64,000 nt of DNA from Melaminivora jejuensis (GTDB lineage Bacteria; Pseudomonadota; Gammaproteobacteria; Burkholderiales; Burkholderiaceae_C): positions 1,302,001-1,366,000 of the forward strand of contig NZ_JACWIJ010000002.1 of the NCBI RefSeq assembly GCF_017811175.1, in the 5' to 3' direction. Shown here in pieces: positions 5,179 through 23,664 of this stretch (its first letter is position 1; the number at the start of each line of letters is the position of its first letter). The notes under the pieces are model-generated. The model saw nothing but the letters and a program-made list of their open reading frames with translations, was not told the DNA's origin and ran no database searches. The position numbers were made by a program, and so were the translations under genes.

Positions 5179-6326
5179 ACACACCGAGTTTCCCCAGCCG
5201 CCTGCCCCAGGTGGGCACGACCATCTTTTCCATCATGTCGCAGCTCGCCGCCGAGCACGGCGCCGTGAACCTGGGCCAGGGCTTTCCAGATTTCGCCTGC
5301 GACCCGGCGCTGGTGGATGCCGTGAGCCGCGCCATGCAAGCCGGCCACAACCAATACCCACCCATGCCCGGCATCCCCGCGCTGCGCGCTGCTGTTGCTG
5401 CAAAAATAGAAGCACTGCACGCACGCCGGTATTGCGAAAACAGCGAAATCACCATCACCGCCGGGGCCACCCAAGCCATCCTGACGGCCATCCTGGCCTG
5501 CGTGCAGCCGGGCGACGAAGTCATCGTGCTGGAACCCTGCTATGACAGCTACGTGCCCAACATCGAGCTGGCCGGCGCCGCCGTGGTGCGCGTGCCGCTC
5601 ACGCCAGGCAGCTTTGCGCCCGACTTCGAGCGCATCGCCGCCGCCCTGTCGCCACGCACCCGGCTGCTGCTGCTCAACACGCCGCACAACCCCAGCGCCA
5701 GCGTCTGGAGCGCCGCGCAGATGCGCCAGCTCGAAGCCCTGCTGGCGCCCACCGACGTGCTGCTCATCAGCGACGAGGTCTATGAGCACATGGTCTTCGA
5801 TGGCCAGGAGCACCAGAGTGCAGCGCGCTTTGCCGGCTTGGCCGAGCGCGCCTTCATCGTGTCGAGCTTCGGCAAGACCTTCCACGTCACTGGCTGGAAG
5901 GTGGGCACCGTAGCTGCACCCGCCGCCCTGATGGCCGAGTTTCGCAAAGTGCATCAGTTCAACGTCTTCACCGTGAACACGCCCATGCAGCACGGCCTGG
6001 CCGAATACCTGCAAGACCCCGCGCCCTACCTGGGCCTGCCGGCCTTCTACCAGGCCAAGCGCGACCTGTTTCGCGCCGGCCTGGCCGACTCGCGCCTGAA
6101 GCTCCTGCCCAGCAGCGGCAGCTACTTCCAGTGCGTGGACTATTCCGCCGTGAGCAACCTACCCGAGCGCGAGTTCTGCGAATGGCTGATCCGCGAGGTC
6201 GGCGTGGCCGGCATCCCGCTGTCGGCCTTCTACGGCGACGGCTTCGAGCAGGGCGTGATGCGCTTTTGCTTTGCCAAGCAGGATGCCACGCTGCACACGG
6301 CACTTGCGCGACTGCGCCGGCTGTGA
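5175..6326 (+). CDS. methionine-type PLP aminotransferase (YbdL-like)
   Basis: A 383-residue fold-type I class I/II aminotransferase, closest in character to YbdL/methionine aminotransferase, which transaminates methionine and aromatic amino acids. Seen: the substrate-loop NLGQGFPDF (about 33-41), YPPMPGIPALR, the aspartate in the strand LLISDEVYEHMVF that contacts the pyridine nitrogen, and the Schiff-base lysine in SSFGKTFHVTGWK (about residue 235). The start overlaps the stop of the CysB-type gene, so translation is coupled. This suggests control within sulfur amino-acid metabolism. Exact substrate is inferred. Confidence 0.88.
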   Translation: MNTPSFPSRLPQVGTTIFSIMSQLAAEHGAVNLGQGFPDFACDPALVDAVSRAMQAGHNQYPPMPGIPALRAAVAAKIEALHARRYCENSEITITAGATQAILTAILACVQPGDEVIVLEPCYDSYVPNIELAGAAVVRVPLTPGSFAPDFERIAAALSPRTRLLLLNTPHNPSASVWSAAQMRQLEALLAPTDVLLISDEVYEHMVFDGQEHQSAARFAGLAERAFIVSSFGKTFHVTGWKVGTVAAPAALMAEFRKVHQFNVFTVNTPMQHGLAEYLQDPAPYLGLPAFYQAKRDLFRAGLADSRLKLLPSSGSYFQCVDYSAVSNLPEREFCEWLIREVGVAGIPLSAFYGDGFEQGVMRFCFAKQDATLHTALARLRRL

Positions 6327-9967: not shown

Positions 9968-10741
9968 TCATCCGGCCCGCCGCTGCGCCACCTGCGCCTG
10001 CGCGGCCACCGGCGCCGCTGCCGTGCGCCACGCTGGCTCCAGCAGCCGCGCACCAGCCACGCGCTTGACAGCCACCGTCACATGGCCTGCGCCCAGCACC
10101 GGCCACCAGCGCGCGCCCAGGCCGTCCATCCACTCGTACTGCTGCAGCCAGCGCTGGCTGGACACGGCAGGCCGAAAGCAGCCAAAACTCACGCTCTCCA
10201 GCTCGAAGCCCAGCAGCTGCAGCCAGTCGCGCAGGCGTCCCGGGGCGATGAATTCGCCGCTTTCGGGCAGATACAGCTGACCGCCCGCGCCCAGGCGCTG
10301 GTACAGCCGGGCGCGCTTTTGCCGCAGGCCCCACAGGCTCCAGGGATTGAGGCCGCTGATGACCACCCGGCCCTCGGGCACCAGCACGCGGTGGACTTCG
10401 CGCAGCGCGGCGTGCGGCTCCACGCTGAGCTCCAGGGTGTGCGGCATCAGCACCAAGTCCAGACTGGCCTCGGGGAAGGGCAGCATGACCGCTTCGGCCA
10501 GCAGCGCCGGTCTGCTACCCTGCAGCCCGCTGTCGCGGCTTTCCTCCTGGCTCAGCGCCAGCCAGCGGTGCGGCATACGGTTGGCGCGCAGGCCCTGCAG
10601 GGCCGGCAGACCCAGCTGCAGCGCATGAAAGCCGAACACATCCGCCACCAGCTCGTCATAGCGGGCTTGCTCCCAGTCCAGCAGATAGCGGCCTGGGGCA
10701 GACCCGAACCATTGATGCAAACCTATAATTTCGCCGCTCAT
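9968..10741 (-). CDS. class I SAM-dependent methyltransferase (type 11)
   Basis: A 257-residue methyltransferase-11 domain protein. [20 protein letters not shown] begins at 10741. The region [20 protein letters not shown] (about residues 82-101) corresponds to motifs II/III, and [20 protein letters not shown] follows. The glycine-rich motif I is weak, as in this betaproteobacterial subfamily, which is usually found next to gloB and rnhA. Substrate unknown. The ATG overlaps that of divergent gloB by two bases (CATG, 10739-10742), leaving no spacer between the start codons. Confidence 0.85.
10724..10729 (+). promoter_or_regulatory. candidate -10 box for gloB, leaderless transcript possible
   Basis: A perfect TATAAT ends 10 bases before the gloB ATG. 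A start site 5-8 bases after it would leave almost no leader. No convincing -35 is seen at standard spacing; a TTGATG lies only five bases upstream. The whole box lies inside the 5' part of the divergent reading frame only if the methyltransferase starts further upstream than 10741. Confidence 0.4.
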
Positions 10742-18441: not shown

Positions 18442-19338
18442 ATGCAAATCGCCTTCATCGGCCTGGGCCACATGGGCGGCCCCATGGCCATCAACCTGCA
18501 CAAGGCTGGCCACAGCGTCAAGGCCTTCGACCTGAGCCAGGACGCGCTGGCCAAGGCCCGCGCCGAAGGCCTGGCCATCGCCACCAGCGCCGAGGACGCC
18601 GTGCAGGGCGCCGAGGCCGTGGTCACCATGCTGCCGGCCAGCCAGCACGTCGAAGGCCTGTTCCTGGGCCGGGACGGCTCGGGCGGGCTGCTGGCGCACA
18701 TTGCCAAGGGCGCGCTGGTCATCGACAGCTCGACCATTGCCGCCGCCACCAGCCAGAAGGTCGCCAAGGCTGCCGAGGCTGCGGGCATCGCCTTCATCGA
18801 CGCGCCGGTCTCGGGCGGCACGGGCGGGGCGATTGCCGGCACGCTGACTTTCATGGTCGGCGGCAGCGACGCCGACCTGGAGCGCGCCCGCCCGCTGCTG
18901 GAAAAGATGGGCGCCAACATCTTCCACGCCGGCAGCGTGGGCGCCGGCCAGACCGCCAAGATCTGCAACAACATGCTGCTGGGCATTTTGATGATCGGCA
19001 CCAGCGAGGCCATGGCGCTGGGCGTGGCCAACGGACTGGATCCCAAGGTGCTGGCCGAAATCATGCGCCGCAGCTCGGGCGGCAACTGGGCGCTGGAGAA
19101 ATACAACCCCTTCCCCGGCGTGCATGAGAACGCGCCGGCCAGCAAGGGCTATGCGGGCGGCTTTGGCACGGATCTGATGCTGAAGGATCTGGGCCTGGCG
19201 CAGGAGAATGCGATGGCGATGAAGGCCAGCACGCCGCTGGGCGGCATGGCGCGGGCGCTGTATGCGGCGCATAGCCTTGCCGGACATGGTGGCGAAGATT
19301 TTTCGAGTGTGATCAAGATGGTGCAGAAACAGGGGTGA
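18442..19338 (+). CDS. mmsB: 3-hydroxyisobutyrate dehydrogenase
   Basis: A 298-residue NAD+-dependent beta-hydroxyacid dehydrogenase that oxidises 3-hydroxyisobutyrate to methylmalonate semialdehyde, the substrate of MmsA. The Rossmann motif is IAFIGLGHMGGPMAINL (residues 3-19). The family signature is FIDAPVSGGTGGAIAGTLTF (about 116-135), and the catalytic lysine is in GAGQTAKICNNM. An AAGGAGA ribosome site is at ideal spacing. It is the last gene of the valine cluster; accessory DNA begins straight after it. Confidence 0.95.
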   Translation: MQIAFIGLGHMGGPMAINLHKAGHSVKAFDLSQDALAKARAEGLAIATSAEDAVQGAEAVVTMLPASQHVEGLFLGRDGSGGLLAHIAKGALVIDSSTIAAATSQKVAKAAEAAGIAFIDAPVSGGTGGAIAGTLTFMVGGSDADLERARPLLEKMGANIFHAGSVGAGQTAKICNNMLLGILMIGTSEAMALGVANGLDPKVLAEIMRRSSGGNWALEKYNPFPGVHENAPASKGYAGGFGTDLMLKDLGLAQENAMAMKASTPLGGMARALYAAHSLAGHGGEDFSSVIKMVQKQG

Positions 19339-19401: not shown

Positions 19402-19800
19402 GGCGTTTTCTATCCGGGGAAATTTAGGTTTGGCTAAACGATTCTGCGGTGAAACCGCAACAAAAGAAAACCCGGATGGCGATCTTTTTATGCGACTGTC
19501 GTCCACGAAAGACTGTCGCCTAAACCTAGTTAGCACCACTCAAAACCCGCTTTATTCATCAAGCCCATGCTTATTCAAACGGCATTTATTTTCTCAAGCG
19601 TTGTGCAGCGCTTGGTTTGTCGTTTCTCTGGGCTTCGCCTGCTGTCGTCACGCGGGTTTTTATTATTTTTGGCCTCTAGCCCTTGCCTAGCAAGCGCAAG
19701 CAGCTATTGTTTTTGCAGTGCTGCGCAGCCTCAGTTGCGCTGTGCTTTTCCGCAGTTCGTGCCCGTCGCCAAATCCAAGTTATCGGTTTTCGCTTCTGGC
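19402..19800. other. AT-rich left flank of cassette array, no convincing gene
   Basis: This stretch, about 400 bases, is clearly richer in A+T than its surroundings. Short open frames exist (for example 19400-19690 and 19567-19857), but none has a ribosome site, and the second runs straight through an attC site. The stretch contains one family A repeat (19676-19715). Its last 50 bases (from 19751) are nearly the same as those before the next attC site at 20457-20505. It is probably the decayed 3' end of an earlier cassette. Confidence 0.6.
19676..19715. repeat. family A dispersed repeat, copy 6
   Basis: A reverse-orientation copy reading ctagcccttgcctagcaagc then gcaagcagctattgtttttg. It lies within the AT-rich left flank of the cassette array. 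Confidence 0.7.
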
Positions 19801-19859
19801 TCTAACATTTCGGTCAAGCCGACCCGCCTACGGCGGTCGGCTTACCTCGCCCGTTAGAA
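19801..19859 (+). other. attC site a
   Basis: Outer boxes TCTAAC and GTTAGA. Inner arms TCAAGCCGACC and GGTCGGCTTA, with loop cgccta. Recombination point expected between 19853 (G) and 19854 (T). It closes an earlier, now geneless cassette. Confidence 0.85.
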
Positions 19860-19864
19860 AATAT

Positions 19865-20422
19865 ATGCCTAATCTTCCAGATGTTGCTATCGGCGCTGTT
19901 GTGGCCGCCTTAATTGCGGGCCTGATATCTCTCTTAGGATTGATCGTAAGTAAAGAACAAAAAACTTCCGAGTTCCGCCAAGCATGGATTGACGCTTTGC
20001 GCTCCGAAATAGCGGCTGTCATTGCACATACCAATGCTATTTATGGTGCTGGTGCTGCAAACATAGAAAGCTCCGTCGAACTCTGGAAGGTCGTGCGAGA
20101 CGACTTCGTCGGAATTAATGAAGCAACTGCCAAGATTAGGCTTAGATTAAATCCCAAAGAAGCCCAAGCTATCGCCGTGCTTTCTACTATCGAATCTCTT
20201 GAAAATTTATTGCAGCCTGGTCAAAAAATGGATTATCGAGAAATCAACGCCATAGAAAAGAGATTGGTCGGTGAAGCTCAATTGCTGCTAAAGGAAGAGT
20301 GGCGCCGAGTACAAACAGGCGAGTCTACTTATCGAGTAGCCCGGTTTACTGCACTCGCAGTCAGTAGCGCCTGTATTTTGGCACTCATAGCGCTTTCACT
20401 CTTACGATTCACCGCAGCATGA
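19865..20422 (+). CDS. cassette 1 hypothetical membrane protein
   Basis: A 185-residue protein that I do not recognise. The ATG at 19865 lies 11 bases after the cassette boundary with no clear ribosome site, as is common for cassette genes. Visible features: a hydrophobic segment at about residues 8-28 (AIGAVVAALIAGLISLLGLI), a soluble charged middle of about 130 residues likely to be helical (EFRQAWIDALRSEIAAVIAH), and a second hydrophobic segment close to the C-terminus (ALAVSSACILALIALSLL). This suggests a two-pass inner-membrane protein with a cytoplasmic or periplasmic helical domain. Low GC relative to the chromosome. Confidence 0.75.
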   Translation: MPNLPDVAIGAVVAALIAGLISLLGLIVSKEQKTSEFRQAWIDALRSEIAAVIAHTNAIYGAGAANIESSVELWKVVRDDFVGINEATAKIRLRLNPKEAQAIAVLSTIESLENLLQPGQKMDYREINAIEKRLVGEAQLLLKEEWRRVQTGESTYRVARFTALAVSSACILALIALSLLRFTAA

Positions 20423-20505
20423 GCCATAACTCGCAGCGGTGGCGCCACGCTTTTTCGCAGTTCGTGCCCGTCGTCAAATTTAGGTTATCGATTTTGGCTT
20501 CTGGC

Positions 20506-20564
20506 TCTAACATTTCGGTCAAGCCGACCCGCATTCTGCGGTCGGCTTACCTCGCCCGTTAGGA
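20506..20564 (+). other. attC site b
   Basis: Outer boxes TCTAAC and GTTAGG. Inner arms TCAAGCCGACCCG and CGGTCGGCTTA. Nearly identical to site a, and the identity extends about 50 bases upstream. Recombination point expected between 20558 and 20559. Confidence 0.87.
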
Positions 20565-20598
20565 ATTTTTCACTTCAATTTTCAGAAAGGAAATATTT

Positions 20599-20889
20599 AT
20601 GGATAGAGGAATTAAAGACGAGGGATTTGTTAGACATGCTCTCGATATCGCCAAAAACGAAGATGGTCGCTGGATTGCAAATCAATCCTGCTTTAACGGA
20701 AGTGCTGACTCAGAATTACAACCCGCTGTTCATGCAGCGCTGGTCACAAGTGTTTCCATTTATGTTGAGAGATACAAATGGGATCAGGAGGAAATAAAAA
20801 ATGCTCTGCAGGCAAAAACTGTTGGTCAAGCCCGTGCCTTAGTGGATAGGCTTTCGGGCTCTATTCCAAGAGGTGAAACTCAAGCCTAA
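20599..20889 (+). CDS. cassette 2 hypothetical protein
   Basis: A 96-residue soluble protein with no family I recognise. It starts MDRGIKDEGFVRHALDIAKN after a good ribosome site (AAAGGA, nine bases upstream). The middle (LQPAVHAALVTSVSIYVERY) is likely helical, and the C-terminus is basic. The TAA stop (20887-20889) lies inside the CCTAAC box of the next attC, a typical cassette arrangement. GC content is well below that of chromosomal neighbours. Confidence 0.75.
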   Translation: MDRGIKDEGFVRHALDIAKNEDGRWIANQSCFNGSADSELQPAVHAALVTSVSIYVERYKWDQEEIKNALQAKTVGQARALVDRLSGSIPRGETQA

Positions 20890-20943
20890 CCCATCGCTCA
20901 AGCCGACCCGCATACTGCGGGCGGCTTATCTAGCCCGTTAGAT
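20885..20943 (+). other. attC site c
   Basis: Outer boxes CCTAAC and GTTAGA. Inner arms TCAAGCCGACCCG and GCGGGCGGCTTA. It overlaps the stop codon of the cassette 2 gene. Recombination point expected between 20937 and 20938. Confidence 0.86.
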
Positions 20944-20961
20944 TTCACTGGAGGTTATCGG

Positions 20962-21552
20962 ATGCTCGAATCGCCAGAAGAGCTTGTGAAGAAGTTCGGA
21001 TACACGTTTGAGCAAGCCAAAGAGATGCATGCCGCGCTTACGGAGGGTGCTAAGACACAGCGCAAGATAAGCCTTCAGATTTTCCAACTAGCAAACAAGT
21101 ATCTCGAATCGTCAAACGCTCTCGGAAAGCACATCGAGACTGTAAAGAATGCAAATGTGGCGCCTGGGCAAATCATGTGCCTCTCCATGGCGTTAGAACT
21201 GTACTTCAAATGCCTTGTTGTACTGGAGCACAGCAACGCATTTGAATATTCAGCTCTTCCAGCATCTCTTCGCAAGAAGCTAGAGACGCATCACATCCCG
21301 ACGATCTTTGACCTTATCGAAGGTCGACACAAAGATCGCCTCGCTGACATCTTCGGCGCTCGGATGGGAGTCCCACGATTGAAGCTTGAAGACTTTCGGG
21401 AGCAACTCGTTGAGAAGGCGAGCCGCATTTTTGTTGACTGGCGTTACATATATGAGAACGCCCCCGGGACCTTCATGCACCTAGACCTCGTGCCAGTTCA
21501 CCACCTGATCATGGCTGCGCAGCTGGTAGCAATTGAGGCCAAACGAGTGTGA
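20962..21552 (+). CDS. cassette 3 hypothetical protein, possibly HEPN-like
   Basis: A 196-residue protein with a strong GGAGG ribosome site eight bases before its ATG. It starts MLESPEELVKKFGYTFEQAK. The helical region around residues 65-90 (PGQIMCLSMALELYFKCLVV) resembles the helical core of HEPN-type or SAVED-associated proteins, but the RX4-6H signature of active HEPN nucleases is not clear, so this is only a suggestion. A second helical block ends HHLIMAAQLVAIEAKRV. The stop lies two bases before the attC box. I do not recognise a firm family. Confidence 0.75.
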   Translation: MLESPEELVKKFGYTFEQAKEMHAALTEGAKTQRKISLQIFQLANKYLESSNALGKHIETVKNANVAPGQIMCLSMALELYFKCLVVLEHSNAFEYSALPASLRKKLETHHIPTIFDLIEGRHKDRLADIFGARMGVPRLKLEDFREQLVEKASRIFVDWRYIYENAPGTFMHLDLVPVHHLIMAAQLVAIEAKRV

Positions 21553-21554
21553 AA

Positions 21555-21613
21555 TCTAACAATTCATTCAAGCCGACGCCGCTTCGCGGCGCGGCTTAAC
21601 TCAGGTGTTAGGG
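21555..21613 (+). other. attC site d, end of array
   Basis: Outer boxes TCTAAC and GTTAGG. Inner arms TCAAGCCGACGCCGC and GCGGCGCGGCTTA around loop ttc. From memory it strongly resembles the short attC of aadA resistance cassettes of mobile integrons. It is the last site; beyond 21613 the sequence is no longer cassette-like. Confidence 0.87.
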
Positions 21614-21741
21614 CGCACACAGACATCAGCCAACCTCAGAAAAAATGGAAAAACAAAATGGCGCGCGTGGAGCTCCGCCCTCTTAATGAGTGGCAAGGCT
21701 ACTCTGCGCCCTGTGGTGGCATCAGCTCACGCGCACTAGCC

Positions 21742-21870
21742 TTATTCGGTTTCCGAGCCGTCGTCTTCGAACACCGCACACACTGCAGCGATGATCCGCA
21801 CATGCCTTGGGTAAAAGACCCCACCTTCGGCAAAGATTTGTGGCAAATCCTTGCGCAGCTTATTGCTCAC
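21742..21870 (-). CDS. small 42-residue ORF coupled to fic
   Basis: The GTG at 21870 overlaps the fic stop codon (GTGA on the minus strand), so it would be translated by coupling. The product begins VSNKLRKDLPQIFAEGGVFY and continues PRHVRIIAAVCAVFEDDGS. I do not recognise it, and it does not look like YhfG, the Fic partner of Escherichia coli. It could be a small regulator of the Fic protein or a chance frame. Confidence 0.4.
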   Translation of the reverse strand: MSNKLRKDLPQIFAEGGVFYPRHVRIIAAVCAVFEDDGSETE

Positions 21871-23336
21871 CTGCCAGCCCCTTCCTTGAGCGAGCGGATG
21901 AGCCGGTCCGCATCCGCGTCCGGCATCTCGACAAACTCCTTGATCGCCGCTCGCGCCTGGTCGTTGCGGCGCAGCGCTAGCGCCTCCTGCGCCATTTCCT
22001 GCTCGACCGTCTGGCGCAGCACGCCGCTCAGGTAGCGTGCCTGCCCGGTCAGATCGAGGTAACGCCACGCATGCTGCGCATCCTCTGCCTGCAGGAATTC
22101 GACATTGGTCTCGACACCATCCGGGCACACCCGCTTCTGTCCAAAGCGGTAGGCATCGGCGTAGAGCTGCATGAAGGGCCGCGAGAAAGCCTCCAGGGCC
22201 AGGTCATAGTCAGCACGCCCTTTGGCCGAGCCGGCGATCGTTGCCGAGACCGGCACGATGATGTTGGCCGGCACCACCTTATCCGCCGCGAGCAGGTGAT
22301 TGACCAGGAAGCGATGGATGCGGCCGTTGCCATCGGCGAGCGGGTGCAAATAGATGAAGGCGAACGACACCGCCGCCGCGCGCGCCACCGGGCTCGTGCC
22401 CCGCGTGCGGGCCTCGAAGCGGCGCAACGCACCGAGCATGTCCGTCACCAGTTCCGCAGGCGGCGCGATGTAGTGGACGATCTCGCGCGCAAAGCTGCGT
22501 TCGCCCACGAACACGGGCGATTGGCGTATGCCCACCCGCAGTGCTGCCTCGCCCAGGACGGCCTGCTGCAGCGTCAGCAGCTGCTCGGGCGCCATTGGGT
22601 CGTCCATACGGCCGCTGTAGTGGGCGATGGCCGCCGCGAAGCGCTTCACCCGGTCTTGCTGGTCTGCCTCGTGCTCGATCGCGAAGCTGGCCCGCGATTC
22701 CTTGAACGTCAGCCAGGCCGCGCTGCGCAGCAGCAACTCTGCCCCATAGGTGTCGTCAAGCGACTGGACACCCGCTGCCACGTCATAGAGCAAGTCACGC
22801 TGATCCTGTAGTCCCAGGAAGACCATCGGGCAGAAATCGCGTGAACCTGGCAGGTTGTCGTTGACCCGCCAGCGCCGCACCCGGTCCGGCCGCTGCGCGG
22901 CCAGGTACTGGCCGGCATCGATCGCGTCCACGTAGCCCACGTTGGGCGGAGTGTCCGGCACGGCCAGTTGCCGCCCGGTGAACCATTCATAGAAGAAGGC
23001 GGCACGCCGGGCATAGCGGCCCATGGGTTCGTCCCTCACCCAGGCCGCCACGTCCTCTGGCTCGACACGGTGAAACAGCCGTGAGAAGAACTCGAAGCTG
23101 AGCCGCTCGTACTTCAGGCCGAATTCGAAGTGCCCGCGGAAGTTGTCGGCTGGCTGGTATTGCGCGGGCCAGGTGCGTGTTTCCTGGCCTTCGGTCGCTT
23201 CACGCTGGCGCACAGACCCCAGGCGGCTGCGCGTGAACAGCGGCTGCACCAGTTGGATGCCGTAAATTTCCGCGAGCCGGTGGAAGCCCAGGAGGGTGTC
23301 GGGCATGGTCTGTAATTTCGCTATGGGAGCAGCCAT
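21867..23336 (-). CDS. Fic-domain adenylyltransferase, probably autoinhibited
   Basis: A 489-residue Fic/DOC protein from the ATG at 23336; a TTG at 23366 in frame would add ten residues. Fic enzymes usually transfer AMP from ATP to target proteins. The catalytic motif is HPLADGNGR (about residues 331-339), close to the consensus HPFxxGNGR. About 110 residues upstream, SFAIEHE resembles the (S/T)xxxE inhibitory helix of class II Fic proteins, where the Glu blocks ATP, although His replaces the usual G/N after it. The N-terminal half resembles the long bacterial Fic/filamentation type. It lies beside toxin-antitoxin genes on an accessory island. Targets unknown. Confidence 0.85.
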   Translation of the reverse strand: MAAPIAKLQTMPDTLLGFHRLAEIYGIQLVQPLFTRSRLGSVRQREATEGQETRTWPAQYQPADNFRGHFEFGLKYERLSFEFFSRLFHRVEPEDVAAWVRDEPMGRYARRAAFFYEWFTGRQLAVPDTPPNVGYVDAIDAGQYLAAQRPDRVRRWRVNDNLPGSRDFCPMVFLGLQDQRDLLYDVAAGVQSLDDTYGAELLLRSAAWLTFKESRASFAIEHEADQQDRVKRFAAAIAHYSGRMDDPMAPEQLLTLQQAVLGEAALRVGIRQSPVFVGERSFAREIVHYIAPPAELVTDMLGALRRFEARTRGTSPVARAAAVSFAFIYLHPLADGNGRIHRFLVNHLLAADKVVPANIIVPVSATIAGSAKGRADYDLALEAFSRPFMQLYADAYRFGQKRVCPDGVETNVEFLQAEDAQHAWRYLDLTGQARYLSGVLRQTVEQEMAQEALALRRNDQARAAIKEFVEMPDADADRLIRSLKEGAGR

Positions 23337-23341
23337 TTTGC

Positions 23342-23395
23342 TAGAAAAACCCTCGTTTTCTACCAAACCGCTATATTCAGCGATAGTGATAGCGG
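23342..23395. promoter_or_regulatory. inverted repeats between yoeB and fic
   Basis: Two hairpins lie just upstream of the fic start on the minus strand: TAGAAAA/TTTTCTA (23342-23362) and CCGCTAT/ATAGCGG (23368-23395, reaching into the yoeB 3' end). They are candidate operators or a weak terminator. No T-tract. Confidence 0.35.
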
Positions 23396-23664
23396 CAGGC
23401 GATCACCACCAACGCCTGCCCGTCCACGCAATACACCAGCCTGTTCGTATCGTCGATGCGCCGTGACCAAAAGCCATACAGGTTTTCTTTCAGCGGCTCA
23501 GGTTTGCCGATGCCGGAAAGCGGTTGGCGCAGGCAATCCTGGATCAGCAGGTTGATGCGTTTCAGGGTTTTTTTGTCCTGGCCCTGCCAATAGGCGTAGT
23601 CGTCCCAGGCCGCCTGCGTCCAGGTCAGCCGCACCAGCCTGTCTGCTGGCGACTCAATCGGCAT
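23377..23664 (-). CDS. yoeB: YoeB/Txe-family mRNA interferase toxin
   Basis: A 95-residue toxin of the YoeB family, which cleaves mRNA in the ribosomal A site. All main catalytic positions are visible: the Glu in GKPEPLKENL, the Arg in GFWSRRID and the His of the C-terminal CRYHYR. The N-terminus TWTQAAWDDYAYWQ is typical. It overlaps the 3' end of the yefM-like antitoxin gene by 11 bases, the usual antitoxin-toxin order and coupling. The toxin looks intact although its antitoxin has an altered N-terminus. Confidence 0.92.
   Translation of the reverse strand: MPIESPADRLVRLTWTQAAWDDYAYWQGQDKKTLKRINLLIQDCLRQPLSGIGKPEPLKENLYGFWSRRIDDTNRLVYCVDGQALVVIACRYHYR

Follow-up and report, generated by a model that had tools for sequence, protein, structure and literature searches.

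A cassette array with an attI and no integrase of its own, probably loaded in trans, in a Comamonadaceae chromosome

CALINs are arrays of at least two attC sites with no neighbouring integrase gene (intI). Their described origins are off-target cassette insertion, loss of intI and rearrangement, and their mobilisation in trans by a functional IntI has also been described (PMC8618304, PMC12444791). They have been proposed to be degraded integrons, and IntegronFinder 2.0 leaves attI sites outside class 1 undetected (PMC9024848). In Xanthomonas, CALINs occupy recurrent positions (secF, lamG), and intI, where kept, lies elsewhere (PMC12444791). The Shewanella prophage M16-3 carries a complete integron alongside a CALIN, and both have an attI (PMC9892861); a further report deals with delta-attI cassettes (PMC12901181). 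Apart from the Shewanella prophage, a literature search covering the accessible parts of the published texts found no report of dispersed chromosomal attI sites without intI.

The locus described here lies in a window of 64,000 nt (the whole stretch of DNA that was analysed) from a member of the Comamonadaceae, the family to which a sequence-only reading of the window had likened its chromosome. It is a CALIN by the usual definition that has kept its attI: the same reading had recognised the CALIN layout, to which we add a recognisable attI at the array head. The locus resembles other CALINs in having at least two attC sites and no neighbouring intI, but differs from them in its full attI and in a position common to two species. 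With complete sedentary chromosomal integrons it shares an attI, of the same family as that of the native integron of this genome, and a cassette array; unlike them, it has no intI. Xanthomonas CALINs likewise combine recurrent chromosomal positions with an intI elsewhere, a comparison made with their published description, the available part of which mentions no attI. As far as the accessible part of the Shewanella report describes it, M16-3 is a single case with a 28-nt prophage attI, whereas here the attI is chromosomal, 123 nt long and recurrent in the family, with evidence of exchange in relatives. The apparent novelty lies in the scale, in the length and conservation of the attI, and in the evidence for in-trans filling of such a site in a relative. 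We conclude that the locus is probably a satellite integron, that is, an attI followed by four cassettes, without an integrase of its own and loaded in trans.

Table 1. Features of the array and its flanks (window positions)
Feature	Position	Strand	Details
mmsB, left chromosomal anchor	18442..19338	+	PF03446 and PF14833; matched in 5/5 genus genomes
attI-like site without neighbouring intI, 123 nt	19411..19533	+	full-length alignment with native attI of 5 genus genomes
attI left block ATCCG..TTTAGGTTTGGCTAAA, palindromic	19412..19438	+
TTATGCGAC box, counterpart of family attI TTATCCGAC box	19488..19496	+	by eye, from right-anchored alignment rows
attI core GTCGCCTAAACCTAGTT	19515..19531	+	14/17 matches to family core; expected crossover after G19529
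Cassette 1, DUF1010-type; ORF 19567-19857 runs into attC	19530..19853	+	PF06231, E 3.4e-28; copies in other arrays
attC1	19802..19858	+	78.9 bits
Cassette 2; 185-aa protein 19865-20422, long helices with hydrophobic ends	19854..20558	+	613 matching proteins including its own; model pLDDT 89
attC2	20507..20563	+	76.6 bits
Cassette 3; 96-aa protein 20599-20889	20559..20937	+	24 matching proteins including its own
attC3	20886..20942	+	70.3 bits
Cassette 4; 196-aa protein 20962-21552, possible HEPN fold	20938..21607	+
attC4	21556..21612	+	76.6 bits; 95% identity over 57 nt to G000:C2:893660-893716, the attC after an aadA1-type cassette in the same genome
Right flank, 72% identity with sister-species array (~150 bp)	21592..21740	+

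The features of the locus are collected in Table 1. Four head-to-tail attC sites with the outer boxes YCTAAC/GTTAGR had been read from the sequence, and they are borne out as similar repeats with paired arms, all on the + strand. Their bottom strands gave fold z-scores of -3.6 to -5.8 against shuffled sequences, with 0 or 1 per 200 shuffles folding equally well. An attC covariance model built from 17 seeds (this genome and one genus mate) accepted all four palindromes at 70.3-78.9 bits (E <= 6.1e-16); since the four sites are themselves among the seeds, high scores are expected, and the fold z-scores and repeat structure stand as evidence independent of the model. At E values up to 1, the only other covariance matches in the 64 kb were antisense to three of the same four sites, and Rfam matched no family over the array. 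The GC content of the array is 0.49 versus 0.675 for the window, and one consensus promoter was observed in it versus 2.2 expected. The low GC of the array agrees with the sequence-only reading, but the number of genes given there does not hold: the array starts 390 nt before the span noted earlier, headed by the attI, and a first cassette directly behind that attI precedes attC1, which makes four cassettes rather than three. As the reading had it, mmsB occupies the integrase side, ending 72 nt before the attI.

The attI sites of this genus share a layout of ATCCG, a palindrome TTTAGGTTTGSCTAAA, a TTAT-type box and a core ending in CTAGTTAG. They measure 122-124 nt in the nine sites used and 119 nt in a degraded copy (L072, genome G002). 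The window site is a homologue of the attI at the native intI, 2.1 Mb distant, and shows the end blocks at conserved spacing and the crossover GTTAG of native Comamonadaceae attI sites. R1, a sequence model of nine attI sites (five native, four without intI, hereafter solo), scored it at 56 bits (E 1.6e-15), the window attI being one of the nine seeds. A profile made from four native attI sites only matched it weakly (first 32 nt, E 0.02) and matched three other intI-less genus sites at E 3.9e-6, 2.6e-5 and 1.3e-3, with a best match on reversed sequence of E 0.28. Measured against a complete integron, the locus has the attI at its head, albeit weakly matched by the native-only profile, and lacks the intI beside it. 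The same profile gave a better value (E 0.012) at 10707-10734 of the window, a chance-looking match that lacks a core at the expected distance. In the 64 kb, both strands considered, the two end blocks are found correctly spaced at a single place, 19421 (block 16/18, core 14/17). Across five genus genomes, the palindrome with at most one mismatch is found at 8 places, all of them attI (15 strand-counted matches versus 5 in the reversed control); because it is confined to attI in the genus, we rejected it as a regulator box, and a genome-wide regulon is unlikely. Two features of the window attI count against loading in trans: its core has 3 mismatches in 17 positions, and promoter-like hexamers, seen by eye in the attI of several relatives, were not seen in it. 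In several relatives, at native and solo sites alike (e.g., L133, L151, L155, L150, L153), a promoter-like TTGNNN-17-TANNAT overlaps the TTATCCGAC box by eye and is possibly a cassette promoter.

The integron integrase profile TIGR02249 has no match within the window, in line with the earlier reading. Searched over the whole genome, it found no intI beside the array and one full-length match, the native intI at G000:C2:3453295-3454260 (469 bits; an open 330-aa ORF that spans the whole model), which adjoins a 7-attC array and lies ~2.1 Mb from the window array. A second intI, in a class-1-like integron at 890 kb, is interrupted, with a fragment at 901686. Thus, the genome has an integrase and the locus is without one. 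The genome has 22 attC matches, in five clusters. One is the four-site array of the window; the others lie near 891 kb (3 sites, in the class-1-like integron), near 1118 kb (2 sites), at 2106-2110 kb (6 sites) and at 3454-3461 kb (7 sites). Besides its interrupted intI, the class-1-like integron (G000:C2 ~890-895 kb; L010 9800-15134) carries cmlA-like and aadA1-like cassettes, followed by qacE and a truncated sul1. The native chromosomal integron holds an aadA-family cassette (L023 4453-5241; 447 bits versus a cut-off of 375), which may be related, as an environmental form, to the clinical gene.

Among the readings other than loading in trans, the one that survives best is a frozen relic, in which intI was lost, the attI and cassettes have so far not decayed, and cassette differences between sister species date from exchange before integrase activity ended. 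We consider it unlikely, and comparison of the mmsB locus among genus genomes, along the lines that the sequence-only reading had proposed for sister strains, supplies the first reasons. The mmsB-terminator-attI junction (site A) is common to this genome (G000) and a sister species (G004), with a shared left flank and a right flank at 72%, so that the local intI was most simply lost before their split. Yet the two arrays, compared by blastn, tblastx and tblastn at 1e-3, have one similar attC and no cassette gene in common. Of the two fates that the reading had allowed, an immobile or a trans-mobilised array, this comparison favours exchange in trans and speaks against immobility. The relic reading is also opposed by the conservation of the attI end blocks relative to the spacer, which amounts to 40/48 versus 41/82 positions between the orthologous solo sites behind mmsB (Fisher 1.6e-4). 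A second intI-less attI (site B), common to G000 (2106 kb) and G003 (2744 kb), gives 44/51 versus 48/76 (p 0.0046), and five native attI pairs show a similar pattern. On the other side, the attI of G002 at the mmsB site is degraded, was missed by R1 and has no attC match, which fits a relic and counts against loading in trans. Two in-frame stops in the intI of G004 also count against loading in trans. G001 and G003 have no attI match at the mmsB site.

A further argument against a relic comes from a relative, G228, whose solo and native arrays share a cassette. The copy that stands first behind the solo attI (L162) is identical to two copies in the native array (L154) over 301/301 positions and to one over 300/300; the identity starts at the crossover GTT and ends right after the next GTTA. 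The solo and native attI sites of this genome are alike at only 76/135 positions, and the shared cassette is therefore not a segmental duplication. Loading in trans is also supported by G232, in which a stretch of 653 bp is common to the native and solo arrays at 98.3% identity; it begins inside an attC, and GTTAG is its end. The window array gives no such sign of recent exchange, a point against loading in trans: none of its cassettes is near-identical to one in the two other attI-headed arrays of the genome that were compared (best 87.5% over >300 bp). The cassette that stands first at the attI in both L154 and L162 is ~298 bp long; it lacks an obvious ORF but shows inverted repeats by eye. 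Its first 12 nt also open L146, and the native array of the present genome has an element of similar appearance in first place (L023 2446-2744).

The family-wide survey yields evidence in both directions. The R1 search (E <= 0.01) picked up 50 sites, spread over 27 of the 299 genomes from the family, with up to four per genome. We fetched 40 of the 42 non-seed sites (all except G295:C1:1075791 and G179:C1:3539647) and searched them by tblastn with native IntI (E <= 1e-5). A full-length intI was present at 12 sites: at 11 it was adjacent, in one case with a stop in frame, and at the twelfth it lay ~1 kb off. At 14 sites there was no intI match, and at the remaining 14 intI was broken, partial or cut off by the contig end, a decay series that a relic would lead one to expect. 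With the four genus solos added, there are 18 intI-less sites in 12 genomes. For twelve of them, in 7 genomes, an intI scoring above the cut-off is present elsewhere, G004 with its interrupted frame included; the other 6 lie in 5 genomes (G024, G069, G091, G179, G234) with no TIGR02249 match at 1e-25, four of these five assemblies being multi-contig. Thus, 5 of the 12 solo-attI genomes are without an intI match, which suggests that some solo attI sites outlast any helper; this counts against loading in trans and likewise agrees with a relic. Many intI-less sites head attC arrays (e.g., L142, L150, L153); L149 has no attC match.

Sequence conservation differs between the two kinds of site at the position adjoining intI. 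The C without which the intI start codon (CAT on the attI strand) would be incomplete is kept in 17/17 native versus 11/17 solo sites (p 0.018), and at every position of ATCCG the base is retained by 15 to 17 of the 17 solo sites; these counts leave out L072, L166 and L169 as degenerate or partial attI, and block conservation in R1-found sites is in part ascertainment. A check that avoids part of this bias used the left block only and returned 60 stretches in named genomes, from genera that include Acidovorax, Simplicispira, Giesbergeria, Paracidovorax, Comamonas, Polaromonas, Hydrogenophaga, Ottowia and Xylophilus. By tblastn, 27 of them have a full intI, 7 a partial one and 17 none, and 9 were indeterminable. 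Where intI is absent, a core with at least 14/17 matches follows 80-120 nt downstream in 13 of 16 testable sites (control windows reaching 13: 0/342); where it is present, such a core occurs in 23 of the 25 testable among the 27 (1/583). L219 and L226 (MAG) are chance-looking left-block matches. L191 looks like a recent intI loss, again as a relic would have it: by eye, ~70 nt resemble the intI 5' region of L183 and L190 and are followed by other DNA, with attI and attC kept. L152 has two facing attI-like sites, one at 2501-2622 and a weak one (16.2 bits) at 5567-5687; the stretch that separates them has attC on each strand.

It is improbable that solo attI sites spread as units, by whatever route, instead of arising through local intI loss. 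Such spread would account for homology to native loci that begins at ATCCG at several solo sites with no intI match upstream, but intI remnants beside other attI sites (L134, L136, L140, L170), together with L191, show that loss occurs. An attG shows similarity to attI in the core only, without extended homology. The window site and native attI are homologous along all 123 nt, spacing included, and in the genus the palindrome (up to one mismatch) occurs only at attI; off-target cassette insertion by IntI at a non-attI chromosomal site, although a described origin of CALINs (PMC8618304, PMC12444791), is thus very improbable. That misassembly hides the integrase of a complete integron is a general caution that hardly deserves credence here, as the window (G000:C2:1302001-1366000) lies in a 3.7-Mb contig and contains no N, mmsB is 72 nt from the attI, and the same junction recurs in a second genome, which make a hidden adjacent intI very unlikely.

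Under the satellite integron reading, an ancestral event, most simply deletion of the local intI, would have left the attI directly behind the mmsB terminator before at least two species of the genus diverged. From its locus 2.1 Mb off, the native IntI would recombine circular cassettes through their folded bottom-strand attC sites into the window attI and excise others, and cassette content would turn over while the attI blocks stay. From the comparisons above we infer that the IntI of this genome uses the window attI, and that this attI is presumably kept by selection rather than caught in slow decay. For the family, the best reading is one of satellite integron platforms that arose mostly by intI loss and are loaded in trans by one chromosomal IntI. 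A stronger version, for which we see the case as evenly balanced, is that Comamonadaceae have one chromosomal IntI acting on several scattered attI platforms without intI; selection would keep these platforms where they are, and they would rely on an attI of unusual length whose palindromic left block is more than the start region of intI. One class of CALINs thus keeps its docking site, and a solo attI in a relative holds a cassette identical to one of the native array, so that such loci look like extra landing pads. This view is a testable claim on the distribution of cassettes across the chromosome, and the 123-nt attI signature offers a way to find pads where current tools do not seek attI.

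The proteins of cassettes 2, 3 and 4 had struck the sequence-only reading as unfamiliar and indeed have no Pfam or NCBIfam match; searches of the three families against PDB sequences gave nothing below E 0.1. For the 185-aa protein, a PADLOC LeoBC match (E 0.0095) and weak PHROGs matches (E 0.013 and 0.093) were obtained. The 196-aa protein may have a HEPN fold, a weak lead. R104 and H110 (R-x5-H) are invariant in 11 sequences, the motif of HEPN proteins being R-x4-6-H. The DUF1010 (PF06231) ORF of cassette 1, whose C-terminus is translated attC, has 32 near-full copies among 45 matches in the arrays searched. Its frame is open for at least 80 codons in 26 of the 32, versus 15-36% by simulation, the copies being related to one another. 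In contrast, two gapless pairs show no excess of third-position substitutions (11/15/14 and 11/16/11), and a third copy is shifted. The ORF is a candidate coding sequence. An Rfam search for an integron-borne small RNA in cassette 1 gave no match at E <= 5. Inside the same cassette, a short repeat TTTTTGGCCTCTAGC...AGCTATTGTTTTT (19666-19715) has more than 20 scattered genome copies among 40 of 75 candidates scored, and more in genus mates.

Downstream of the array, the window encodes a Fic-domain protein (21867-23366), a match to PDC-S24 (E 5.8e-158), one of the candidate defence families of PADLOC; its gene is adjoined by that of a YoeB-like toxin (23377-23664).
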